Assembly (NCBI GenBank): GCA_937858705.1
Contig: CALLZM010000025.1
Location: forward strand, 1-47,218
Direction of reading: 5' to 3'
Source: an uncultured Candidatus Saccharibacteria bacterium
GTDB lineage: Bacteria > Patescibacteriota > Saccharimonadia > Saccharimonadales > Saccharimonadaceae
Length of the DNA: 47,218 nt
Shown: positions 12,030 to 43,919 of the stretch, in pieces
How the letters are laid out: each line of letters begins with the position of its first letter
Position numbering within the stretch: position 1 is the first letter of the stretch
Made by a program: the position numbers and the translations under genes
Notes under the pieces: model-generated
The model's input: only the letters and a program-made list of their open reading frames with translations
Databases searched by the model: none
Told to the model about the DNA's origin: nothing

Positions 12030-12092
12030 CACAGCCGAACACACTTGTGCTACAATGTAATCAAGCAATACATCGGTATAATGGAGGGCAAG

Positions 12093-12923
12093 GTGAAGGG
12101 GATATTTCAAACAATAACAGAGGTAGTTAAGTCGCCAACGGTACTAACGCTGCTCGTCGGTGCGCTCATCGGTGGCGCGGTGGTTGGTGGTAGTATGATG
12201 GTCAGCGCCGAGAGTTTTCCGGGCGGCACGGATAACGGTAAAACTTCGCGGATAAAGCAGCTCACCGACGACCTTGCGGCGCTCAACTACGGTAGCCCAA
12301 GCAACACGCCCGACTGGGGTGCCAACTGGAACCGCATTGCTACTAGCGCTAAGTGGACACCAAACGGCGACACTACGCCAGCCGATGTCATGGTGGGCAA
12401 AACCTTCTATGGCAACAACCGCACCCAGCAAACCGGCACCAAGCCAGTGACGGGTATCTGTCCGACGCAAGCGTGGCATGACAGTGCCGCCGGTGCTAAC
12501 AAGCCCGACAGTTGCGTTTTTGACTGGGTGACGCCCACGCCTACGCTGCCGGGTGACGACAAAAAAGACCCGAACACTGGCTTGGTCTGGAGCAAATGTC
12601 TCCTCGGCACGGGCGGCGCAGTTGATTTCGCACCGTCGACTGCGTGTACGACATACTCCTGGGATAACACCCATGCTAACAACAGCGGCAAAACGGCTAT
12701 AGAGCTCTGCTCCGACAGAGGCAACGGCTGGCGCTTGCCCACCCAAAAAGAGCTCATGCAGGCCTATGTCGATGGCTCCAACTACAACTTAGTGACGCCT
12801 GCTGCCAGCCACTGGTCAGCGACCGAGCATTCTGCGGCGGTTGCTTGGTACACCAACTTGTCCTATGGCTACACTAACAACAACTCGAAGGCCAATGCGT
12901 ACCAGGTGCGGTGCCTCCGGTAA
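12093..12923 (+). CDS. DGR target: membrane-anchored variable protein with C-type-lectin-like DUF1566 domain
   Basis: A 276-residue exported protein. An N-terminal membrane anchor (about residues 14-36, rich in G, A, V and L) is followed by an outward region. The segment ADVMVGKTFYGNNRTQQTGT is of a kind seen in phage tail and surface proteins. The C-terminal DUF1566/C-type-lectin-like domain has GLVWSKC, CSDRGNGWRLPTQKEL and the closing YQVRCLR. The last 125 bases are the variable repeat, so the ligand face is what changes. GTG 12093 is chosen for its GGAGG site at 12083-12087; ATG 12081 is an alternative. Possible promoters are TGC-TACAAT (12051-12056) and TATAAT (12077-12082). The likely role is adhesion or recognition at the surface. 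Confidence 0.88.
   Translation: MKGIFQTITEVVKSPTVLTLLVGALIGGAVVGGSMMVSAESFPGGTDNGKTSRIKQLTDDLAALNYGSPSNTPDWGANWNRIATSAKWTPNGDTTPADVMVGKTFYGNNRTQQTGTKPVTGICPTQAWHDSAAGANKPDSCVFDWVTPTPTLPGDDKKDPNTGLVWSKCLLGTGGAVDFAPSTACTTYSWDNTHANNSGKTAIELCSDRGNGWRLPTQKELMQAYVDGSNYNLVTPAASHWSATEHSAAVAWYTNLSYGYTNNNSKANAYQVRCLR
12799..12923 (+). repeat. DGR variable repeat (VR)
   Basis: 125 bases that match 14828-14952 (offset 2029) except at seven positions: 12808, 12837, 12840 (A in the template to G), 12841, 12849, 12864 and 12870 (A in the template to T). All seven are A in the template. The last 53 bases are identical. Encoded changes are N to S, T to A, N to V, and N to Y three times. Confidence 0.97.
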
Positions 12924-12951
12924 TCTTTTCTTGGTGATTGTGTGATTTCGG

Positions 12952-12970
12952 CCCGCCCTCTCGGGGCGGG
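12952..12970 (+). other. GC-rich hairpin downstream of the VR
   Basis: Perfect 7-bp stem CCCGCCC (12952-12958) / GGGCGGG (12964-12970) with a 5-base loop, 28 bases after the VR end. No T run follows, so it is a poor terminator. Hairpins just downstream of the VR help target recognition in the well-studied phage DGR, so this may be the homing hairpin. Confidence 0.6.
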
Positions 12971-13009
12971 GCGAGTACGGGTCACTTCCAGAACTTAACG
13001 CAAACATAT

Positions 13010-13035
13010 AGTTTTGGAAATATACTTCCAAAACT
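13010..13035. promoter_or_regulatory. Palindromic operator before the second ATPase promoter
   Basis: AGTTTTGGAA (13010-13019), loop ATATAC, TTCCAAAACT (13026-13035), ending 2 bases before the -35 box. A near copy of one half-site (TTCCAGAACT, 12986-12995) lies 40 bases upstream. It resembles the palindrome at 10826-10853 in core (TTTGGRAA/TTCCAAA-like) and in placement. Confidence 0.7.
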
Positions 13036-13037
13036 TA

Positions 13038-13066
13038 TTGACATGATGTCGTAGAGGGACTATACT
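13038..13066 (+). promoter_or_regulatory. Promoter of the ATPase-avd-TR-RT unit
   Basis: TTGACA 13038-13043, 17-base spacer, TATACT 13061-13066. ATG 13074 begins 7 bases later, so the first message is probably leaderless. No other full promoter was seen before the reverse transcriptase. Confidence 0.75.
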
Positions 13067-13073
13067 ATAACGC

Positions 13074-14264
13074 ATGATAAATCGTACACTATATCTAAAT
13101 AAACTGCGCATGTACAAGGATAAACATCTTATAAAGGTCGTGTCTGGCATTCGTCGCGCTGGCAAATCGACTCTTTTGCAGATATTTAAGGGGGAGATAA
13201 TAGGTGCTGGGGTAGACGAGCGGCAAACGATTTCTCTCAACTTTGAGGACTTAGCATACCGGGACATATTGACGGCTGAGGCAGCCTATGACTACATACA
13301 GAGCCGGTTACTCTCGGACAGGATGAATTATATTTTTCTCGACGAAGTGCAAAATGTTGCTGAGTTTGAGAGGATGGTAGATAGTCTGTTCATAAAGGAA
13401 AATGTCGACCTGTATATCACTGGCTCCAATGCATATTTTTTGTCATCTGACCTTGCGACTGTTCTGACTGGCCGCTACATACAGATACACATGTTCCCAC
13501 TCTCGTTTGCAGAGTATGTCTCAGAGTTTGATGATACGACCAACCTAGCACAATTATATGCAAGCTATATCAACTATGGTTCGTTTCCGCAGGCACTGGA
13601 GCTATTTCTCGATAGTCCAGAGGCGGTGAAGCCATATATTCAGAGTATATACGATACTGTATTGTTCAAAGACATTGTGGCGAGGAAGTCTATCAGGCAA
13701 GAGGGTACTCTGCAGGATATTGCAAAGTTTGTATTTGACAACATCGGTAACCCTACCAATCCTCACAGAATAGCTACCTCGCTGACCGCTGCTGGTCGTA
13801 AAGTGAGCAATCATACAGTAGAGGACTACATGACAGCACTGACGGATAGCTTTGTCTTGTATCGTGCAGACCGCTACGATGTTAAGGGGAAGCATATTTT
13901 GCAAACACAGCAGAAATACTATTGCGTTGACTTGGCGTTTCGACAGTTGCTTTCCAAAACTCTACCGACAGACTACGGGCGTATGCTCGAGAATGTTGTA
14001 TTTTTGGAGTTACTGCGGCGCTATGACAAAGTGATGGTCGGTAAGTTTGGCGTGAAAGAGATTGATTTTGTGGCTGTGCTTGATGATGAGGTGCACTACT
14101 ATCAGATAGCCCTTTCGGTGCGCGAAGATGCTACTAGAGAGCGTGAGCTGGCGGCTTTTCCTCAAGACCATCATGCGAAGTTTTTGCTCACGCTTGACCC
14201 AGAAGAAGGAAATATACACGGTATCAAACAGCTGAACGCTTTGAATTGGCTGGTGAAGCAATAG
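13074..14264 (+). CDS. Second AAA ATPase of the DUF4143 type, inside the DGR
   Basis: A 396-residue ATPase. Walker A SGIRRAGKST is at about residues 24-33, Walker B MNYIFLDEVQN at about 82-92, then YITGSNAYFLSS. The C-terminal part holds the DUF4143 nuclease-like fold (VKEIDFVAVLDDEVHYYQIALS) with Q in place of the catalytic Lys, so cleavage is doubtful. It differs strongly from the ATPase at 10890, so the two are not recent duplicates. It lies between the DGR target and avd, with avd starting 4 bases after its stop, so all DGR machinery genes may be driven by its operator-controlled promoter. Confidence 0.85.
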   Translation: MINRTLYLNKLRMYKDKHLIKVVSGIRRAGKSTLLQIFKGEIIGAGVDERQTISLNFEDLAYRDILTAEAAYDYIQSRLLSDRMNYIFLDEVQNVAEFERMVDSLFIKENVDLYITGSNAYFLSSDLATVLTGRYIQIHMFPLSFAEYVSEFDDTTNLAQLYASYINYGSFPQALELFLDSPEAVKPYIQSIYDTVLFKDIVARKSIRQEGTLQDIAKFVFDNIGNPTNPHRIATSLTAAGRKVSNHTVEDYMTALTDSFVLYRADRYDVKGKHILQTQQKYYCVDLAFRQLLSKTLPTDYGRMLENVVFLELLRRYDKVMVGKFGVKEIDFVAVLDDEVHYYQIALSVREDATRERELAAFPQDHHAKFLLTLDPEEGNIHGIKQLNALNWLVKQ

Positions 14265-14268
14265 GCCT

Positions 14269-14640
14269 ATGGCTCGCTACGAACACCTACCTGTCTACAA
14301 GGCGGCATACGACTTGAACTTGTATTTTTTCAAGTTGTCGCACAGTTTTCCGAAAGATTTTAAATATGGGCTAGGGCAAGAGGTGAGGGCGCTACTGACG
14401 GAACTGCTCGACCTCATCATCATCGCCAATAACAGCCAGGATAAACGGTCGGCGCTGCAAAAAGCTACCTTGACTATCGAACGAGTGAAGTTCAAAGCGC
14501 GGTTGCTGCACGACCTGAAAGTCATAAAAACCACTAGCTCAAAACACTTTTTTGTGCAACTAGTGGAGATATCGCAGCAACTGAAGAAGTGGTATGATTA
14601 CTGTGGGGGCCTGAGTGGCTCTCAGGAAAAGAAAGGGTAG
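14269..14640 (+). CDS. avd: Avd, DGR accessory variability determinant
   Basis: A 123-residue helical protein with the features of Avd: PVYKAAYDLNLYFFKLSHSF at the N-terminus, FKYGLGQEVR at about residues 29-38, ANNSQDKRSAL near 54 and a closing amphipathic helix with QLKKWYDYCGG. Avd forms a pentameric four-helix barrel that binds the RT and the template RNA and is needed for mutagenic cDNA synthesis. It starts 4 bases after the ATPase stop and is followed by the structured leader and TR, the standard avd-TR-RT order. Confidence 0.9.
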   Translation: MARYEHLPVYKAAYDLNLYFFKLSHSFPKDFKYGLGQEVRALLTELLDLIIIANNSQDKRSALQKATLTIERVKFKARLLHDLKVIKTTSSKHFFVQLVEISQQLKKWYDYCGGLSGSQEKKG

Positions 14641-14827
14641 TACAGAGCTGAGCGCAGTCTCGCTATGAGTGCGAGTTGGGCTCGGGACTATTTCCCCATT
14701 ACGGTCACCACTCCAGACTGCGGTCTGGGATAAGAGACAGAGTGCTGCTACGCAGCGTGTTTGCGATGTGGTATTTCACTTGAGGCTAAGTTGGTGACAT
14801 TTGCGCTCGGGTTCTCGTTGCCTTTCT
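14641..14827 (+). ncRNA. Structured non-coding stretch between avd and the TR
   Basis: No plausible gene. Three perfect small hairpins lie in a row: CTCGC/GCGAG (14659-14663 with 14671-14675), CCAGAC/GTCTGG (14713-14718 with 14723-14728, TGCG loop) and GCTGC/GCAGC (14744-14748 with 14752-14756). In DGRs the RNA flanking the template binds Avd and RT, so this is the likely 5' part of the template RNA. A 63-codon frame (14761-14952) runs through it but has no ribosome site and covers the TR. Confidence 0.55.
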
Positions 14828-14952
14828 CTGCTGCCAACCACTGGTCAGCGACCGAGCATTCTGCGACGAATGCTTGGAACACCAACTTGTCCAATGGCAA
14901 CACTAACAACAACTCGAAGGCCAATGCGTACCAGGTGCGGTGCCTCCGGTAA
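14828..14952 (+). repeat. DGR template repeat (TR)
   Basis: 125 bases donating sequence to the VR at 12799-12923. Read in the target frame it is rich in AAC and AAT codons (ANHWSATEHSATNAWNTN and NGNTNNNSKAN), the usual design for A-directed mutagenesis. It ends at the same TAA as the VR, and similarity stops right after it. The RT gene starts 28 bases downstream. Confidence 0.97.
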
Positions 14953-14980
14953 CGGGGAACTTTCTTTTTACGAGACATAG

Positions 14981-16021
14981 ATGAACACTTATTTCACTTA
15001 CGAAAACCTACTCAAGGCCTATCATACATGCAGAAAGAACAAGACTACTAGTCAAGAATGCATGGAGTTTACCTGCAATCTTGAGGAAAATCTATTGGCA
15101 CTGGAGCAAGAGTTACAAACAAGGAGCTATCGACCGGGTCGGGCAGTGGCGTTTGTGGTGACCAAGCCGAAACTGCGCGAAGTGTTTGCGGCACGGTTTC
15201 GCGACAGAGTGGTGCATCATCTGCTGTACAATTATCTCGCGCCGATATATGAACCGAGGTTCATCTACGACTCGTGGGCATGTCGAGTAGGCAAAGGTAC
15301 GCATGGGGCGATGCAGCGGTTGCAGGACTTTGCGTGGCAGGCGAGTGAAGGCGGACGAAATCGCGAGTGTTACTATTTGCAGATGGATATCAAAAGTTTT
15401 TTTACTTCAATCGACAAGCAATGTTTGTATGATATATTTGCCAGAAACATCAAACGCGAAGAGATATTGTGGCTGACAAGAGTGATTATTTTTCATGACC
15501 CAGCGCGCGATATACCACCACAGCTGAATAGTCCGCCAAAACTGTTTCGGCAACTGCCGAGAGATAAGTCGTTGTTTACGGTTGAGAAAGGCCGTGGTCT
15601 GCCCATTGGCAATCTGACTTCGCAGTTTTTCGCTAATGTTTATTTGAATGAGCTGGACTGTTTTGTGAAACATGTATTGAAAGCGAAGAGGTATGTACGG
15701 TATGTTGACGACTGGGTGATTGTTGCTGGGAGTATGGCTGAGCTGAGGGCGTACGAGAGGGAGATTACTGCATTTACAGAGTCAGCACTGGAGTTGACGA
15801 TTCAGGCAAAAAAGACGGTGGTTGGGCGAGTGAGCGATGGTATTGACTTTGTGGGGTATATCGTGCGGCCACACTATGTGTTGGTGCGGCGCAGAGTGGT
15901 GTGGCAGTACCGGCGAGCACTCGAGCATGCGTTTGATGAACGGGCTCGAAAAAAGGTCGTGACAGCGTACAAAGGGCATATGCTGAAGGCGAATAGTTAC
16001 GCGCTCTGCGGTGTTTCATGA
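14981..16021 (+). CDS. DGR-type reverse transcriptase
   Basis: A 346-residue RT copying the template RNA with errors at A. RT motifs in order: YYLQMDIKSFFTSID (first catalytic Asp D136), the DGR-type GLPIGNLTSQ at 206-215 in place of the group II intron sequence, catalytic YVDD at 241-244, LTIQAKKTV and GIDFVGYIV. There is no maturase or endonuclease domain, which separates it from group II intron proteins, and the length is normal for the family. The catalytic residues are intact, so it should be active. The start ATG lacks a clear ribosome site; translation may be coupled or use a downstream start. It ends with TGA at 16019-16021. Confidence 0.95.
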   Translation: MNTYFTYENLLKAYHTCRKNKTTSQECMEFTCNLEENLLALEQELQTRSYRPGRAVAFVVTKPKLREVFAARFRDRVVHHLLYNYLAPIYEPRFIYDSWACRVGKGTHGAMQRLQDFAWQASEGGRNRECYYLQMDIKSFFTSIDKQCLYDIFARNIKREEILWLTRVIIFHDPARDIPPQLNSPPKLFRQLPRDKSLFTVEKGRGLPIGNLTSQFFANVYLNELDCFVKHVLKAKRYVRYVDDWVIVAGSMAELRAYEREITAFTESALELTIQAKKTVVGRVSDGIDFVGYIVRPHYVLVRRRVVWQYRRALEHAFDERARKKVVTAYKGHMLKANSYALCGVS

Positions 16022-21718: not shown

Positions 21719-21749
21719 TTTACTCAGGGGGGGGGGTCTATGCTACAAT
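21719..21749 (+). promoter_or_regulatory. Promoter with a G10 tract in its spacer (likely phase-variable)
   Basis: Extended -10 TGC-TACAAT (21744-21749) with -35-like TTTACT at 21719-21724. The 19-base spacer holds ten G at 21727-21736. Loss of two G would give the 17-base spacing used by the other promoters here. A second -10-like TATAAT (21801-21806) without a clear -35 lies nearer the gene. Confidence 0.65.
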
Positions 21750-21837: not shown

Positions 21838-23256
21838 ATGCAATCCCAAACCCTCACCCAAACCATCACCCTCCTTGTGGGTGACACCACCGCAGGTGGG
21901 GGCACCCTTGCCTCCACTGGCATCAGCTCCACTGTCTTCATCGCCATAGCTTTTACGCTCATCCTCTCTGCCATTCTCCTCTATCGCTTTGCCACTCGTC
22001 GTGGCATTCTTCGTTCTATCTCTTCCTTTCGCAACCTTGGTATCTTCGCTTTTCTCGCTCTTGGTATCATCAGCCTTGCTCTAAACCTCTCCACTGTCTC
22101 TGCCGCTCCAACACTCATTCTTGCCGCTAACCAATCCAACCTCGAAATAACCATCCCCAAAAACGGCGGCACAGCAACCACTACCACCACCATGACCACC
22201 TCCACCGCCAACGCCACTGGCTATACACTCACTGCTAGCCTTGAAGCCGAAGAGCCAGGCATAGGTATTGCGCTCAAGGGCGGTGATGTTACGACAAATA
22301 CAGCATTGGCGGCAGGAGAAACACCACTCACTTTGAAGAGTACGAACACCGCAAATACTGGTGACGCTACTGACACCACTGCAGTCGAACTGTCGTTCAC
22401 CATCGACAGCACTGTCACCGAAGGCACCAAAGAGCTCAAGCTCACCTACAAAGCCACCGACAATGAATCAGCAGGCCCAGTTACTCCGCCAACCCCAACC
22501 ACCATGCAGTCCCTCACCCAAGACTACTGCACCAACCACATGACCATCTACAACGGCACGAATGAAGACGCCATCCTCACCCTCCAAGACAACCGCGGCG
22601 CCACTCCAGCAGACTACCGAACCTACCAAGTGGCTAAGCTAGCAGACAACAAGTGTTGGATGCTGGATAACCTCAAGCTTGGCTCGACTACAGGCACCAC
22701 CACGCTCACCTCGGCAGACAGCAACGTAGCAAGTAACTTCACACTGCCACAAGTAGGCGGCAACAACACACTCGACTACGACAATCCTCGAGCCTACGGT
22801 CCTGTCCCTGGCGACACGGGCAATGGTGCGACGAACTATGGCTACTTGTACAACTGGTCAGCGGCCACGGCAGGAGAAACACAAGCCTCAATAACTTCAG
22901 GCAACGCAGCGCACAGCATTTGTGCAAGAGGTTGGCGACTGCCAACCGGAGGAACAGGTGGCGACTTTGCCCAACTCGACCAAGCATTCGGTGGCTCGGG
23001 TACCGGCTCGTGGAGCGGTGAAGCAAACATCGCCCAGTGGCAACATAACGGCCTATTTAAAGGGGTCTTCGCCGGCAGCTGGTGGGAGGGCTTCCTCGAC
23101 CAGGGTGACTGGGGCTACTTGTGGCCCAGTTCGGCCGCCGTCCTGGGCTGGTCGGGCGGCGCATTCAACGCGAACTTCAATGCTGGCGGCGTCGACCCGG
23201 GCAATAGCGGCGGCCTCCGCGGCAGCGGGTTTGGGGTTCGCTGTCTCTTAAATTAG
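21838..23256 (+). CDS. Second variable-type surface protein (Fib_succ_major/C-type-lectin-like)
   Basis: A 472-residue exported protein. It has two membrane segments (about residues 29-48 and 66-86), a Thr-rich beta domain (about 90-215), a PTPPTPTT linker, then a C-terminal domain with YQVAKLADNKCWMLDNLKLG, CARGWRLPTGG and the closing GFGVRCLLN, as in Fibrobacter-type major paralogous domains and DGR targets. The motif LASTG (24-28) before the first hydrophobic segment and RR after it mimics a sortase signal, though at the wrong end. The ribosome site AAAAGGAG (21817-21824) is 13 bases from the ATG. The gene is C-rich at its 5' end and very G/C-rich at its 3' end, unlike its neighbours. It is probably a surface ligand-binding protein. 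Confidence 0.8.
   Translation: MQSQTLTQTITLLVGDTTAGGGTLASTGISSTVFIAIAFTLILSAILLYRFATRRGILRSISSFRNLGIFAFLALGIISLALNLSTVSAAPTLILAANQSNLEITIPKNGGTATTTTTMTTSTANATGYTLTASLEAEEPGIGIALKGGDVTTNTALAAGETPLTLKSTNTANTGDATDTTAVELSFTIDSTVTEGTKELKLTYKATDNESAGPVTPPTPTTMQSLTQDYCTNHMTIYNGTNEDAILTLQDNRGATPADYRTYQVAKLADNKCWMLDNLKLGSTTGTTTLTSADSNVASNFTLPQVGGNNTLDYDNPRAYGPVPGDTGNGATNYGYLYNWSAATAGETQASITSGNAAHSICARGWRLPTGGTGGDFAQLDQAFGGSGTGSWSGEANIAQWQHNGLFKGVFAGSWWEGFLDQGDWGYLWPSSAAVLGWSGGAFNANFNAGGVDPGNSGGLRGSGFGVRCLLN
23065..23253 (+). other. Candidate second DGR variable region (template not in window)
   Basis: Of the 54 codons from residue 410 to 463, 40 end in C or T, many of them GGC, GAC, GCC, GTC, TTC or AAC. 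That is expected when AAC/AAT codons are mutated at their A bases. It sits at the end of a lectin-like domain just before the GVRCL motif, the usual VR position. It does not match the local TR, so a distant template would be needed. Confidence 0.5.
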
Positions 23257-32494: not shown

Positions 32495-33109
32495 ATGAAG
32501 AATTTTGAATCGAACCGCACAGGAACAAGAGAACATATTAAAAAAGGAGTATTAGCGCTAGGGGGGGGGGCAGCGTTACTCACGCTGAATGCATGTGCTG
32601 AAGAATCGGTACCTACGAGCAATCACTATGGCGTAGAAGCTTTATGCCTCCAAGACGGTGCTATTGCTCGTGATGCTCCAAAAAAGGGTGACGATGATGC
32701 TATATTCTTTCCTGGATCTGGCAAGCAAGCTGCAGAGCTCGATCTGAATAATAAGAGGGGAGATCACGGAGATGATGCCTGGGAATATGTTTGTTATAAG
32801 CCAGAAGCAGGTATTGTCCAATCTGCTGATGGCTCTGGTGTGGACCCGAAGTATACGGATTGGCACAACGGTGCTTACGATCTAGTAGACGGCTCTCGCA
32901 TTCTTCAGGCTATTGAGGAAGGGAAGCTTTTAGACGGATATGGAAATCCAGCTACTCAGTTGGCGATTGAGTCTACTAAAAAGTTTGCTAAAAAAATTGC
33001 TGGAAAGGACGCCTGGGTTAATTGGCAACGAACATGGACGGTAAATGAAGAACCTCATGATCTAGGGGGCAAACCCTTTGGTGATACTTTTCCTCTTGAG
33101 GAACGATAA
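32495..33109 (+). CDS. Predicted phase-variable lipoprotein
   Basis: A 204-residue protein with a lipoprotein signal: KK at residues 16-17, a hydrophobic stretch to about 30 and lipobox LNAC with Cys34. The mature part is acidic and soluble, with no known domain (CYKPEAGIVQ, YDLVDGSRILQ, VNWQRTWTVNEE). A run of ten G at 32561-32570 encodes three Gly inside the signal. Loss of one G reaches TGA after five further codons, and gain of one G ends at TGA soon after the lipobox position, so export and synthesis can switch off. At present the frame is open. The promoter is leaderless-like. Confidence 0.78.
   Translation: MKNFESNRTGTREHIKKGVLALGGGAALLTLNACAEESVPTSNHYGVEALCLQDGAIARDAPKKGDDDAIFFPGSGKQAAELDLNNKRGDHGDDAWEYVCYKPEAGIVQSADGSGVDPKYTDWHNGAYDLVDGSRILQAIEEGKLLDGYGNPATQLAIESTKKFAKKIAGKDAWVNWQRTWTVNEEPHDLGGKPFGDTFPLEER
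32561..32570 (+). repeat. G10 homopolymer in the lipoprotein signal sequence
   Basis: Ten G, codons 23-25 plus the first base of codon 26. It is a contingency-locus-like tract. Confidence 0.9.
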
Positions 33110-38359: not shown

Positions 38360-39430
38360 TTATGCTTCGGCGTTCTGTGCCTTGAGCTCACGCTCGTACT
38401 TCTGGAGGTTTTCGATGAGGTCGTCGATGTCGCCGTTCATTGCCGCAGGGATGTTACTACGCGAGTGGTGGATGCGGTGGTCGGTGATGCGGTCTTGCGG
38501 GAAGTTGTAGGTGCGGATTTTTTCGGAGCGGTCGCCAGTGCCAACGAGACTGCGGCGCTCAGCTGTCAGTTTGGCGTTTTCTTCGTCGATTTTCAGTTGA
38601 AGCAGGCGTGAACGAAGCACGCTCATGGCCTTCTCGCGGTTTTTTATTTGTGATTTTTCATCTTGGTTGGTTACGACCATACCAGTCGGCAGGTGAGTGA
38701 TACGAACGGCAGAGTCGGTGGTATTGACGCTTTGCCCACCATGCCCGCCCGAACGAAATACATCGACACGGAGGTCATTTGCATGAATCTCAATGTCGGC
38801 TTCTTCGGCTTCTGGCAGTACTGCCACGGTGGCGGTTGAAGTATGAACGCGACCTTGCGACTCTGTCACAGGAATGCGTTGAACGCGATGAACACCACCT
38901 TCGAATTTCAATTGTGCATACGGTGCATCGCCTTTCACTTCAAATACTACTTCTTTATAGCCGCCGCTGTCGTTCGCTGACTCGCTCATGAGTTCAGTTC
39001 TGAAGCCGTGTGTTTCGCACCACCGCAAATACATGCGGTAAAGCTCGGCCGCAAACAAACTAGCCTCGTCGCCACCCGCACCAGCACGAATTTCTATGAT
39101 GACATTTTTTTCGTCGTTGGGATCTTTCGGGGTAAGTAGGATGAATAATTCTTCTTCCAGCTGCTTTAATTGTTGTTCGATCTCCGTTATTTCTGCTTTG
39201 GCAAGCTCTGCCAGCTCATCGCCGCCAGTAGCAAGTTCTTTTGCCTCTGCGAGGTTTTGCGTCAATTGCTCGCGTTCTTTGGCTTTAGCGATGAGCGTTT
39301 CTAGCTCTGAAAATCGCTTATTTTTCGCACTAAAATCGGGAGTATTGTACGAATCGGGGCGCGCCAAAAACTCACCGAGACTTGTGTGTTCGGCTTCGAG
39401 GTCGGAAAGATTGAGGGAAATTTGCGCCAT
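38360..39430 (-). CDS. prfA: Peptide chain release factor 1
   Basis: A 356-residue factor reading UAA and UAG. The codon-recognition tripeptide PVT is in [18 protein letters not shown], and the catalytic GGQ in [19 protein letters not shown]. The -10 TATAAT with extended TGC lies 10 bases before the ATG on the minus strand. prmC follows 57 bases later. UGA needs release factor 2, not seen in this window. Confidence 0.96.
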
Positions 39431-39459: not shown

Positions 39460-39720
39460 CTATCTGTATACTACGCTACGATGACCAACGCGCACAACAT
39501 ACACGGTGATCGACGAATCATTCACTTGGTAGAGGATGCGATAGTTTCCTTGGCGTATGCGGCGTACGGTACTGCCAGTGAGCTGGATAGAGTCAGTAGG
39601 GTACGGATTGAGGCTGAGTTGGTCAATTTTTGTTAAAATCTTTTTGCGGTCTTTTGCTGGGATGGGCGGGAGGTCTTTTTTGAGGACCCGCTTATCGAAA
39701 ATGAGGCTATATGAGGCCAT
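39460..39720 (-). CDS. RelE/ParE-type toxin
   Basis: An 86-residue protein. [20 protein letters not shown] followed by [15 protein letters not shown] is the RelE/ParE fold core, a ribosome-dependent mRNA nuclease or gyrase poison. A longer frame runs upstream through the antitoxin gene, but ATG at 39720 overlapping the antitoxin end by 14 bases is the standard arrangement. The catalytic class cannot be fixed by sequence alone. Confidence 0.82.
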
Positions 39721-39937
39721 CGCGTTTGAGCCCTGCGCGAAATTCTTCATATGTTTCGGTTGGACCGCCTGCGCGTTCTTCGAAGGCTTCGATATCGGCG
39801 AGGTCTTCGGCAATAGCATCGGCAATAGCGCGCTGAATGTACGCTGAAATAGTCTGGTCGGACTCGAGGGCACGGCGTTTCAATGCTTTCTGAAGCATAG
39901 GCGTGTTATAGAAAGTGGTTTTAATAACTGTACTCAT
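39707..39937 (-). CDS. RelB/DinJ-like antitoxin
   Basis: A 76-residue acidic protein: a ribbon-helix-helix start (STVIKTTFYNTPMLQKALKRRA, then DQTISAYIQRAIADAI) followed by an acidic toxin-binding tail. A longer in-frame ATG at 39988 is rejected because the promoter lies between. It starts 6 bases after its -10 box and is the first gene of the toxin-antitoxin operon. Confidence 0.8.
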   Translation of the reverse strand: MSTVIKTTFYNTPMLQKALKRRALESDQTISAYIQRAIADAIAEDLADIEAFEERAGGPTETYEEFRAGLKRDGLI

Positions 39938-40058: not shown

Positions 40059-40149
40059 TTATAGAGATAGAGCTGTTTTTTTGGAAGGGGAGTGGTGTAT
40101 GGAATTCGTTAAAGTCCACCAAAGAATGGCGAAAAATGGTACGGTAAAA

Positions 40150-40178
40150 TTGCTTTTTTATCCATTTTATGCTAAAAT
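40150..40178 (+). promoter_or_regulatory. Promoter of the PRTase-like gene
   Basis: TTGCTT 40150-40155, 17-base spacer, TAAAAT 40173-40178 with extended TGC. It decides for ATG 40192 over the upstream in-frame starts. Confidence 0.6.
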
Positions 40179-40191
40179 AAAAAGACAAACT

Positions 40192-41388
40192 ATGGCAAGA
40201 CACATCAACGAACAGAATGAGCGCAAGCTACAACAGCCTGAATTATGCCCAGCAGATATAGCGTACCGATTTGAAGTGTTTGGAGCAGTGAAGCAGGCTC
40301 CGCTATTTGACGAGCAGATACAAGAAACAGATAGAACAAATGAGATCGTCTATATTCCTCACAAGCGCGCTCTCGGTGTTGGCACTAGCAACGATAGGTA
40401 CAGGTCGCGGCGTAAGATTACTACAGAGCATGTTGCCCTGAAGGCCCTGTCTACTTTCTTGGAAAGAGCCGCAAGATCATTGCAGGATAACTATGAGGAG
40501 CGGATGAGTGCTCACAGTATACAAGCGAATCTATCATTTATCGGCAAAAAAGAATTCGAAGAGGCGACTGCAGGGATTGCTGATTACTGGAAATGGCTTC
40601 TCGATGGCGATGAAACACTACAGATAGGTATTGTGACTGGAGCGCTCCCATATGTCGACTCTTCATATCGCGATAAAGATGGTCAGCACCAAATCAAAAG
40701 TGACGAGTTCGTACTCGATAGCATCTTAGCACACTTCTCTGATGAGGAACTTTACAGATATAGCGAGAGACTTCATATTGACTATGAAGATATCGTACAG
40801 AAAGCCACTGAGGCTGAAGATGCGGATCACTTTAAAATTGTATTGCTTGACGACTGGATGATTTCTGGTACTCAGTTAAGAGATGTGAGAGACAAAATAT
40901 ACTGGGAATTTCCTCGCCTGAATAAGTCGATTAGTATACAACTCATCGCAGCAAGTGGAGAATCTATCAGGGATGGACTTGTGATGCATGATTATTTTGG
41001 TGGTCGCAGGGGGGTTACGCCAATTCGAGCATACTATATAGCCCGAGAAGCACCTTTGAGCAAGGCTGATAACCATGCTCATATTACGGGCTACCATTCA
41101 TCTGTTGACTATGGTTTTGAGAAACTGATTAATCAAATGACGCATGTTATATTCGTAGACGGCGGAGAATTGGAAGAGATGCCACCTCTGACAAACATCG
41201 TAAGGCCTTACAGGCAAGGAGAAAAGTATCTTGCTCATTGCGCACGAGTTTTGATTGCGTCTGCGCAAAAGATAGGGGGGGGGATAGTCATGGTAGCTAG
41301 AGCACACGGACTACGCTGCCACGAGCTATTATTGACATTTTCACGAATCTATGCTAGTATGATAGATAAGGTACAGTTAGTATTGTAA
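40192..41388 (+). CDS. Phosphoribosyltransferase-like protein with a G9 tract
   Basis: A 398-residue soluble protein. KIVLLDDWMISGTQLRDV (about residues 217-234) matches the PRPP-binding loop of type I phosphoribosyltransferases (hydrophobic strand, DD, then SGT); no substrate family is recognised. Nine G (41275-41283) encode Gly362-364. In the present frame 34 more residues follow and run through the promoter of the next gene. With one G fewer a TAG comes directly after the Gly codons, and with one more, TAG comes six codons later, so the tract toggles the C-terminal tail. The short form may be the normal end. It forms a unit with the peptidase-like gene 12 bases downstream. Confidence 0.65.
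   Translation: MARHINEQNERKLQQPELCPADIAYRFEVFGAVKQAPLFDEQIQETDRTNEIVYIPHKRALGVGTSNDRYRSRRKITTEHVALKALSTFLERAARSLQDNYEERMSAHSIQANLSFIGKKEFEEATAGIADYWKWLLDGDETLQIGIVTGALPYVDSSYRDKDGQHQIKSDEFVLDSILAHFSDEELYRYSERLHIDYEDIVQKATEAEDADHFKIVLLDDWMISGTQLRDVRDKIYWEFPRLNKSISIQLIAASGESIRDGLVMHDYFGGRRGVTPIRAYYIAREAPLSKADNHAHITGYHSSVDYGFEKLINQMTHVIFVDGGELEEMPPLTNIVRPYRQGEKYLAHCARVLIASAQKIGGGIVMVARAHGLRCHELLLTFSRIYASMIDKVQLVL
41275..41283 (+). repeat. G9 homopolymer in the PRTase-like gene
   Basis: Nine G, codons 362-364. Slippage moves the stop codon to just behind the tract. Confidence 0.9.
41332..41360 (+). promoter_or_regulatory. Promoter of the clan CD peptidase-like gene
   Basis: TTGACA 41332-41337, 17-base spacer, TAGTAT 41355-41360, inside the last codons of the PRTase-like frame. 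The leader to ATG 41401 is about 33 bases. Confidence 0.72.
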
Positions 41389-41400
41389 ATAATAAAAACC

Positions 41401-43080
41401 ATGACAATTGAAACTTTTAAAAAAAATATCACCCCGGAAATAATACAGCCCAAAGTGCAAGTCGGGCTAGGCGAAGCATCGCCAACTGAAGTGTTAGCAG
41501 ATGATGCCGCGGAGCATACGAAAATTTTTACAGAAGCGACAACTTGTATTGACAACAGTATAGTGGCAGGAGAGGCTCAATCTGGTGCCGACATGTATCG
41601 GGAGCTGAACGATCAGATGCACGACACTATGGACTATATAGCAAATAGTAAAACTATGTCACACAAAGATACGGCAAGAGCACTAAATGATATATGGGCA
41701 TTTTGTCTCAGTGGAGTGAAAGCTCGCAATGTTGTTATCGGCTCTCCCGAGTCTGACTCACTAGCGGACGATGCAGTTGCAGAGATGATGTATTGTTTGC
41801 CGGATATGTCTGCCGAACGCATGAAAGCGCTCCTTGGCCTACCCGAAGCAGAGCGGGGCAAGCTGGACGATATAGTGATGGCGGCGATCGGGATATTTCA
41901 TAGAGAGGCCGACAAAGCCAGTGATATGCATGGGCGGCTATACTTTTTGCGGCAGGCAGCAAACATGCAGGGATATGCAAGACTCACGGAAAAACGATGG
42001 GCAATTGCTAGAGGAGAAATAGCGGACGATGGGCTTAAGAAGTCCGATGTGATACTGGATGAATGGGGCGATACTCCGCTGATGGATACGCAAAAAATAT
42101 GGACAGTGCTGGAAGATATTGGCGTGCCATCGCCAGAGGAAGCAATAACTGCTATGTATGAACGGTTAAAAAATCCGGCTGAGGGTAGTGGCGATTCTCC
42201 GGATTGTCTCGATGCAAAGAAAACCAAAGCCTGGTTGATGGGCTTGGCGAGTAAAATGATGCATATTGGCCCTGAAAATGCCAAATTGTTGAGAGAAAAG
42301 TGCGGCTTTGTGAACTTTGCTGATATGCCGAACGAACTATTGGATAGAATGGTGCGGTTTGCCAAGGGCGATGAAGCATTGATGGAATATTTGCATAGTA
42401 AAGAGGTGGCGGTGGTCATAAAAGATGCGAGCAATGACTATAACGGTGCTTTTAGGAACATTTATGACAAGTATGAGACGACAGATGGCGCTACTTTGGT
42501 GTTTGAAGTTCCTGCAGTGCACGATACCCTGCCAGCTCATCGACAAGTAGCAAATACTATTTTTGATATGTACTATTTGCTAAGACAATACGATATAGAT
42601 CCTTCGTTGCTAGTGGTGGCTGGTCATGGGCAAGTGGGATCGATTGATATGGGTGGTGCTGAAATTGGTACAGGGGGGGGGCTTCCGCTGAGAGAGTCTG
42701 GGCTGTTGCCGATTATGCAGCACATGAAGCCGGATAGAGATGGTAACTGTAGCATTGTGTTTGATTCATGTTCTCAAGATGCTCCAGGCGATGGCGGTGA
42801 GGATGATACGACACTTACACAAACAGCTATTGATATACAGAATACTTTGGAAGAAGCCGGAGCATCTCCTCTAGGGACTTATCAAGTGTATGGAGTGAAT
42901 ATGCCGTATCAGTCACGCTTGTTTGAGGGTGGTGTTATGGTGGCCATGGCATCCGATGATAGCGTGAGGGTTGGGAGAGTGATTGTAACGAGATCGGGTA
43001 AGATATTGCGTCACTTAAGGGATGAAAATGATAGAGATACAATATTGCTACCGATGCTGTTGAGAAATGGGCGAGAATAG
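41401..43080 (+). CDS. Predicted clan CD (caspase-like) cysteine peptidase with a G9 tract
   Basis: A 559-residue protein. A long helical N-terminal region (about residues 1-340) precedes a domain where a hydrophobic strand ends in His-Gly (LLVVAGHGQ, His409) and the next hydrophobic strand ends in Asp-Ser-Cys (SIVFDSCSQ, Cys457). That is the block order of clan CD peptidases (caspases, gingipains, clostripain, CHAT). Nine G (42673-42681, Gly425-427) lie between the two catalytic residues: loss or gain of one G gives a stop before Cys457. In the present frame the gene is on. No signal peptide is seen. It has its own promoter inside the end of the PRTase-like gene. The fold is inferred by motif only. 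Confidence 0.62.
   Translation: MTIETFKKNITPEIIQPKVQVGLGEASPTEVLADDAAEHTKIFTEATTCIDNSIVAGEAQSGADMYRELNDQMHDTMDYIANSKTMSHKDTARALNDIWAFCLSGVKARNVVIGSPESDSLADDAVAEMMYCLPDMSAERMKALLGLPEAERGKLDDIVMAAIGIFHREADKASDMHGRLYFLRQAANMQGYARLTEKRWAIARGEIADDGLKKSDVILDEWGDTPLMDTQKIWTVLEDIGVPSPEEAITAMYERLKNPAEGSGDSPDCLDAKKTKAWLMGLASKMMHIGPENAKLLREKCGFVNFADMPNELLDRMVRFAKGDEALMEYLHSKEVAVVIKDASNDYNGAFRNIYDKYETTDGATLVFEVPAVHDTLPAHRQVANTIFDMYYLLRQYDIDPSLLVVAGHGQVGSIDMGGAEIGTGGGLPLRESGLLPIMQHMKPDRDGNCSIVFDSCSQDAPGDGGEDDTTLTQTAIDIQNTLEEAGASPLGTYQVYGVNMPYQSRLFEGGVMVAMASDDSVRVGRVIVTRSGKILRHLRDENDRDTILLPMLLRNGRE
42673..42681 (+). repeat. G9 homopolymer between the predicted His and Cys of the peptidase
   Basis: Nine G, codons 425-427. 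With eight G the frame ends at TGA three codons later; with ten it ends at TAG about 20 codons later. Confidence 0.9.
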
Positions 43081-43114: not shown

Positions 43115-43193
43115 TATACTACCTCTTGTAATAATTTTAATGACACAATCTACGCTACTCCAATAGGCGTAGGTGAGGAAAAAGGAGAATAGC
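43115..43193 (+). promoter_or_regulatory. rpsB promoter and leader with a hairpin
   Basis: Extended -10 TGT-TATACT at 43115-43120. The leader holds a 6-bp stem CTACGC (43150-43155) / GCGTAG (43167-43172), then AAAAAGGAG. It may be an autoregulatory ribosomal-protein leader. Confidence 0.5.
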
Positions 43194-43919
43194 ATGTCTG
43201 TAACAGTAGACATTAAGGCTTTGTATGAAGCTGGTGTTCATTTTGGACACAAAACGAGCCGTTGGCACCCGAAGATGGCGCCCTATATTCACAGTAAGCG
43301 GCAAGAGAGCCACATTATCAACCTCGAAAAGACGGTTGAGGCACTGAATGTGGCATTGCCAGAGCTGACGAAAATTGCGGCAAGTGGTAAAAAGATATTA
43401 TTTGTTGGTACGAAAAAGCAAGCCAAAGAGTTGGTGCGCGAAGCGGCCGAAAAGGTGAACCAGCCGTTCGTCACCGAGCGATGGATTGGCGGTATGCTGA
43501 CAAATGTCGAGACGGTCACTAAGCAAATTCGCAAACTGCGCGACCTCGAAAAACGAATGGCCAGTGGTGACCTGGAAAAACGCTACAATAAGCTAGAGGT
43601 ACAGCGTTTCCAAGAAGAAATCGATGCGCTGAACCTAAAATATGGTGGTATCAAGGAGCTAAATGGCAAGCCAGGCGCGGTTGTTGTGACCGATATCTTG
43701 GCTGATGTAAATGCCGTAAAAGAAGCTCAGACGCTTGGCGTGCCAGTATTTGCGCTCGTAGATACCAATGCCAACCCAACAGGTATCGACTTTGTTATTC
43801 CAGCAAATGACGATGCTAAAAAAGGCCTCGAGCTATTGGTTGATTATTTTGCGCAGGCAGTAGCAGAAGGAGCTGGCGCGGTCAAAGCAACAGATAAACC
43901 TGTAAAAAAGGAGCAATAA
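43194..43919 (+). CDS. rpsB: Small ribosomal subunit protein uS2
   Basis: A 241-residue 30S protein: LYEAGVHFGHKTSRWHPKM at the N-terminus, ILFVGTKKQAKELV, RWIGGMLTN and GVPVFALVDTNANP are all uS2 signatures. The frame opens at 43173, but the strong AAAAAGGAGAA site places the start at ATG 43194. tsf follows one base after the stop, the universal rpsB-tsf pair. Confidence 0.95.
   Translation: MSVTVDIKALYEAGVHFGHKTSRWHPKMAPYIHSKRQESHIINLEKTVEALNVALPELTKIAASGKKILFVGTKKQAKELVREAAEKVNQPFVTERWIGGMLTNVETVTKQIRKLRDLEKRMASGDLEKRYNKLEVQRFQEEIDALNLKYGGIKELNGKPGAVVVTDILADVNAVKEAQTLGVPVFALVDTNANPTGIDFVIPANDDAKKGLELLVDYFAQAVAEGAGAVKATDKPVKKEQ

Follow-up and report, generated by a model that had tools for sequence, protein, structure and literature searches.

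A putative clan CD cysteine peptidase gene in a Saccharimonadaceae bacterium carries a G9 tract between its predicted catalytic residues

A gene for a clan CD peptidase-like protein was identified in the window, the whole 47,218-nucleotide stretch of Saccharibacteria DNA analysed here, and it carries a run of nine Gs (G9) between the codons for the two putative catalytic residues. On balance, we think it probable that the G9 is a slipped-strand switch and that the protein serves a conflict or effector role together with a phosphoribosyltransferase (PRTase)-like protein encoded at the same cargo site. The gene has the following features.

41401..43080, + strand: open reading frame (ORF) for a putative cysteine peptidase of 559 aa with a caspase-like (clan CD) fold
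41401..42399, + strand: N-terminal region, residues 1-333, mostly helical, poorly conserved, low model confidence
42400..43077, + strand: C-terminal clan-CD-like domain, from predicted model and alignment
42625..42627, + strand: His409, putative catalytic, invariant in a 12-domain alignment, context VVAGHGQVG
42673..42681, + strand: G9 tract, coding for Gly425-427 of a variable loop that lies between the putative catalytic residues
42769..42771, + strand: Cys457, putative catalytic, invariant in the 12-domain alignment, context IVFDSCSQ

The G9 starts at a codon boundary and is read in frame as GGG GGG GGG, and with nine Gs, the state found in the assembly, the full protein is encoded (ON). 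Computed slips give products of 429 (-1), 445 (+1), 444 (-2) and 430 (+2) residues, all four of which stop before Cys457; the cysteine is kept only with changes of -3 or +3. The original prediction had placed the ORF, His409 (within AGHG), Cys457 (within FDSCS) and the G9 at Gly425-427 exactly where we find them, and its claim that a single-base slip removes the Cys agrees with the ends of the -1 and +1 products upstream of that residue. The N-terminal half of the protein is helical and fast-evolving, and no signal peptide or membrane helix was apparent from hydropathy.

Structures were predicted with input alignments of four sequences. In the model of the window protein, which is of low confidence (pTM 0.47), residues 331-527 align with caspase-3 (Z about 6). 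Its C-terminal half runs through β1 (335-342), α1 (347-358), β2 (363-370), α2 (379-396) and β3 (403-409), which ends at His409, to β4 (449-456), directly followed by Cys457, and this order of strands and helices is that of clan CD. The AlphaFold model of a homologue (L058) reached a pTM of 0.73, again with one strand leading to a His (His273) and one to a Cys (Cys355). Residues 209-436 of that model superpose on Tce1 with Z 12.3 and rmsd 3.1 over 168 aligned residues (VIA-align), followed by SAVED-CHAT (Z 9.9), C80-type peptidase domains (9.0), C11 (8.4), gingipain (7.8) and caspases and MALT1 (7-7.8), with a metacaspase also listed; the list is dominated by clan CD. Foldseek alone gave Tce1 at E 0.0033 with mostly noise beneath it, and its matches were sorted with VIA-align. 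The caspase-haemoglobinase fold anticipated from the sequence is thus seen in both predicted structures.

Across 12 aligned domains, which share 17-29% identity with that of the window, the His and the Cys are the sole invariant residues, and both are also kept in four homologues outside the alignment (L129, L130, L133 and L134). The original prediction had staked the dyad on its retention among homologues, and these do keep residues equivalent to His409 and Cys457. The two are 48 residues apart in the window protein; spacings of 45 and 54 have been described for two known proteins related in fold (PMC13323088). In the models and the alignment the protein thus shows structural marks of clan CD, namely an α/β fold, a His after one core strand, a Cys after the next and conservation of this dyad in the family. 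Relationship to a named family at the sequence level (C11, C14, C25, C80 or CHAT) was rejected: the window peptidase matched no Pfam profile at E up to 10, those of C14, C11, C25, C80 and CHAT included, no family of NCBIfam or PADLOC and, in a profile search, no sequence of the PDB, so that the resemblance is structural and the proposed profile check against C11, C14, C25 and CHAT came back empty. The homologues had no Pfam match either. The protein very likely has the clan CD fold and is likely to have peptidase activity. Because no named family matches, the dyad is invariant and the models match clan CD, these proteins would constitute a new clan CD family.

A single-sequence search found peptidase homologues in 6 of 151 family genomes, the window's own included, and a profile search in ten, a count that excludes weak matches resembling trigger factor and a more distant relative (L047). 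With a domain profile, further genomes with homologues were found across the order Saccharimonadales, in a patchy and lineage-restricted distribution. Weak matches to the full-length profile A1 (3e-6 to 7e-4) in eight genomes were discarded, as the four that were read all proved to be trigger factors, helix look-alikes. Viral contigs held no relative of the peptidase, and a viral fold library gave low-quality matches only. One homologue (L032/L112, genome G043) is broken by a single TAG just ahead of the stretch of the domain with His and Cys. None of 16 homologues has a G tract in its gene, and the switch would therefore be particular to the species of the window.

Directly 3′ of seven homologues lies a small ORF, in most cases overlapping the peptidase gene by 1-8 nt.

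L059, 7242-7649: small partner ORF
L060, 7275-7700: small partner ORF
L105, 3278-3700: small partner ORF
L106, 4671-5108: small partner ORF
L108, 2612-2995: small partner ORF
L109, 3067-3489: small partner ORF
L112, 1908-2345: small partner ORF

The products have 127-145 residues and are acidic in six of the seven (pI 4.1-5.0; the seventh has pI 6.2). Three are detectably related to one another, and none of the four that were scanned had a significant family match. Such a partner, which the peptidase gene of the window lacks, could be an immunity protein or a chaperone.

The surroundings of the peptidase gene are as follows.

38360..39430, - strand: prfA (peptide chain release factor 1), one conserved flank
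39460-39873, - strand: RelE/ParE-like toxin ORF beside prfA, recognised by eye
40081..41388, + strand: PRTase-like protein (PRTase-CE-like), ending 12 nt before the peptidase start
41275..41283, + strand: G9 tract of the PRTase-like gene, in the part encoding the C-terminal tail
43173..43919, + strand: rpsB (ribosomal protein S2), the other conserved flank, called from GTG 43173, probable ATG at 43194

The PRTase-like gene is the probable operon partner of the peptidase gene. Its product matches PRTase-CE (PF24390) at E 0.0088 and 16.4 bits and PADLOC PRTase_III-A at E 0.0037 and 14.9 bits; the best relative, a homologue in L102, reaches E 6e-06 and 26.8 bits against PF24390, and every copy tested scores below the curated cut-off of 27. 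By computation, slips at 41275-41283 alter the last 37 residues or remove them. The original prediction for the peptidase had noted neither this second coding G9 nor the set of tracts across the genome. This tract lies beyond the conserved domain, and a slip therefore probably alters only the tail. Fusion of the two proteins by slipping was considered, as the genes share a frame, and rejected, since the stop at 41386-41388 lies between them and slips at 41275 end the PRTase-like protein at once.

The site between prfA and rpsB differs from genome to genome. In two congeners (G057 and G088) the gene order there is prfA, rpmE, a gene for a small membrane protein and rpsB, and both the PRTase and the peptidase gene are missing. 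Homologues of the peptidase adjoin rpsB in G154, G048, G015, G116 and G043 and lie beside prfA or rpmE in L059 and G165, and the PRTase is not their constant neighbour. In G058 a PRTase-like gene at the same site is followed by a gene whose 536-aa product shows an ART-like motif by eye but matches nothing in Pfam, and in G138 the site holds seven tandem PRTase-like copies. These seven genes beside rpsB (L098, G138:C14, 1044-12899) vary in their N-termini, and one has internal stops within its match. Because its contents (peptidase, PRTase, small partners) are swapped among relatives, the site resembles a cargo site, with proteins that diverge fast and probably relate to conflict.

Most likely, then, the peptidase would act as an intracellular or injected conflict or effector protein. 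The position of the gene, the small acidic partners of its relatives and the apparent lack of a secretion signal fit a protease that acts in conflicts inside the cell as well as an effector directed at the host. We put a host-directed effector at a little short of an even chance. Saccharimonadia have a type IV secretion system, which has been reported as essential for their epibiotic growth (PMC12102498) and would offer a possible delivery route. The label ‘death-type’, which the original prediction had attached to the peptidase, found no support beyond the analogy of fold.

Defence is the strongest competitor to a host-directed role, though we consider it somewhat unlikely. The peptidase and the PRTase-like protein would then work inside the cell against phage or by abortive infection, and phase variation would keep down the cost of self-toxicity. 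Clan CD domains are known from defence systems, and SAVED-CHAT ranks second among the structural matches; the weak PRTase-CE and PRTase_III-A-like scores of the upstream protein, the apparent lack of a signal peptide or membrane helix in the peptidase and the exchange at the cargo site with a possible ART-like partner all point the same way. However, neither protein passes the curated cut-off of a defence family, the peptidase having no PADLOC match at all, the operon showed no further gene of a defence kind such as a sensor or nuclease, peptidase homologues do not always have the PRTase as a neighbour, and many other putatively phase-variable genes of the genome look like surface genes. Defence is about as economical an explanation as a host-directed effector.

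The case for a switch draws on the distribution of G tracts. Besides the two listed above, the window holds two others.

21727..21736, + strand: G10 tract upstream of a surface-protein-like ORF (21838-23256)
32561..32570, + strand: G10 tract within a lipoprotein-like gene (32495-33109), in its signal region

These four tracts of at least nine Gs compare with 0.09 expected under a first-order model. The spectrum of G-run lengths (14 G5, one G6, two G9 and two G10) has a gap at G7-G8, and GGGGGGGG is matched 10 times in the window against 0.63 ± 1.08 in dinucleotide shuffles. Three of the tracts are coding, compared with 0.034 expected and a maximum of one in 1999 shuffles of synonymous codons, and long ORFs are kept open across all three. 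The peptidase gene thus shares with contingency genes an over-long repeat tract whose change in length would alter the product. Also in the window, recognised by eye, is a diversity-generating retroelement-like region (12045-16021) with a C-type-lectin-like target candidate (12045-12923), a four-helix accessory-like ORF (14269-14640) and a reverse transcriptase (14981-16021); the surface-protein-like ORF at 21838-23256, preceded by the G10 tract, appears by eye to be a second target-like protein.

The genome of the window (0.91 Mb, draft, 31 contigs) contains 35 distinct tracts of at least nine Gs against about 2 expected, the latter being our scaling of the Markov estimate for the window to the genome. 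Neither congener (G057, G088) has any, and at least one G10 is present in 44 of 198 family genomes. Of 34 tracts, 12 are flanked by a TTGACA-like and a TATAAT-like hexamer with a combined score of at least 9 out of 12, an arrangement found at 2.6% of random sites. In this genome (G000), spacer tracts of 9-12 Gs are seen in L061, L066, L070, L074, L075, L078, L080, L083, L084 and L085, flanked by TTGACA-like and TATACT/TATAAT hexamers with a spacer of 18-20 where both are in view. The genes downstream mostly start 12-65 nt on and include collagen-like proteins and prepilins with an N-terminal methylation motif; several of the type IV prepilin genes start 12-14 nt after the tract and are possibly leaderless. 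Among the genes with coding tracts are those for a glycosyltransferase, a GDSL lipase, a helicase and reverse transcriptases. Some of these genes have lost their frame in the assembly, for instance those of a reverse transcriptase (G13, L064) and a PKD-domain protein (G14, L072) and a possible split gene pair at a G9 (L066). In L062 (1750-3752) a gene for an autoinducer-synthase-like protein (PF00765, E 6.7e-08) has a G9 near the C-terminus and adjoins that of a ThiF-like protein.

MutS (PF00488, domain V) had no match in the genome of the window or in 28 of 29 relatives, both congeners included, that is, in 29 of 30 Saccharimonadaceae genomes with and without G tracts; the same profile matched in 11 of 14 control genomes. 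MutS-dependent mismatch repair therefore seems to be absent from the family, and its loss predicts high slip rates. Since MutS is also missing in relatives that have no G10, its absence explains mutability, not the tract set. For the set, slipped-strand phase variation appears to be the best reading of the sequences, and the tracts across the genome, those in promoter spacers and the undetected MutS together strengthen the case for a phase switch.

It seems to us quite unlikely that the effector or conflict protein does not phase-vary, with a G9 that arose by chance or neutrally after loss of mismatch repair and is held in frame by selection. The undetected MutS, the homologues that do without a tract and the position of the tract in a variable loop, where three glycines would be tolerated, are all consistent with this explanation. 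However, the congeners are equally without detectable MutS and yet have no tract of at least nine Gs, G7-G8 runs are missing from the window while G9-G10 runs are present, and neither the 12 of 34 tracts in promoter spacers nor the tract genes out of frame in the assembly are as it would predict.

That the protein has the clan CD fold without being a peptidase, as a scaffold or pseudo-enzyme, is in our judgement improbable: the invariants are limited to two residues, as this would allow, but those two are a His and a Cys in a very divergent family, and invariance confined to such a pair is what a catalytic dyad would be expected to look like. Finally, an artefact of sequencing or assembly in the run or its length is highly improbable, for although this is a draft of 31 contigs, three of which start or end at a G tract, errors do not make ordered TTGACA-spacer-G tract-TATACT contexts, the three coding tracts of the window leave long ORFs open, and the C26 and C28 contig breaks lie within a repeated pilin-gene start.

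Our preferred model for the peptidase is accordingly phrased as a switch. Where MutS is not detected, long G tracts would mutate fast and selection would keep them in contingency genes. Gain or loss of one or two Gs from the G9 may then replace the full protein with one of 429-445 residues that has no Cys457. The peptidase would be made jointly with the PRTase-like protein, the pair being exchanged at the prfA-rpsB site, and active enzyme might be present in only part of the population when it meets a host bacterium or a phage. More tentatively, and at well under an even chance, the long G tracts could together form a contingency system spanning the genome, in a lineage that lacks MutS, with type IV pilins and collagen-like proteins controlled through promoter spacers and a new family of clan CD peptidase effectors with their PRTase through coding tracts; if so, the means of dealing with host bacteria would differ from cell to cell.

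Saccharibacteria grow on other bacteria, and phase variation is a basic means of hedging for host-associated bacteria. Should it be at work in this epibiont lineage, the adaptation of ultrasmall symbionts to their host bacteria could be tested from tract lengths in existing reads. The peptidase family is a clean target, with a conserved dyad, a known fold class and no annotated function, and the overlapping small acidic partner in many relatives adds to its appeal. Among the databases and open-access papers searched, neither the family nor a switch between dyad residues was found, nor any report of genome-wide G-tract contingency or phase variation in Saccharibacteria.

The fold class and phase variation are themselves of known kinds. 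The upstream protein is a distant relative of PRTase-CE (PF24390), every tested copy lying below the cut-off. With C80, C11, C14 and C25 the peptidase shares the clan CD fold and a His before the Cys after consecutive core strands, but it differs in that no profile matches it up to E 10 and in belonging to a lineage-restricted family. The clan CD fold is likewise shared with CHAT proteins, as seen in matches to a SAVED-CHAT filament (PDB 8tl0, Z 9.9) and a CRISPR-effector caspase-like regulator (PDB 7zoq, Z 6.4), although no SAVED or CRISPR partner was identified at the locus and CHAT is not matched in Pfam. The best fold match, Tce1, is a putative cysteine protease effector from Pseudomonas aeruginosa that is bound to Hcp3 (PDB 9qpe; PMC13323088). 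It aligns with the L058 homologue over 168 of 178 residues and has a His-Cys dyad of similar spacing and an N-terminal extension ahead of the peptidase domain; on the other hand, identity is about 9% and no relationship was detected from sequence, the peptidase described here has no known type VI partner and no G tract is known in Tce1. The contingency loci of Neisseria and Bordetella have homopolymeric tracts (e.g. PMC5084427, PMC1891110), and as in the present genome these are long, lie in ORFs and promoter regions and affect surface genes prominently, whereas here the bearer is a Patescibacterium with no detectable MutS and a caspase-like peptidase gene is among the targets.
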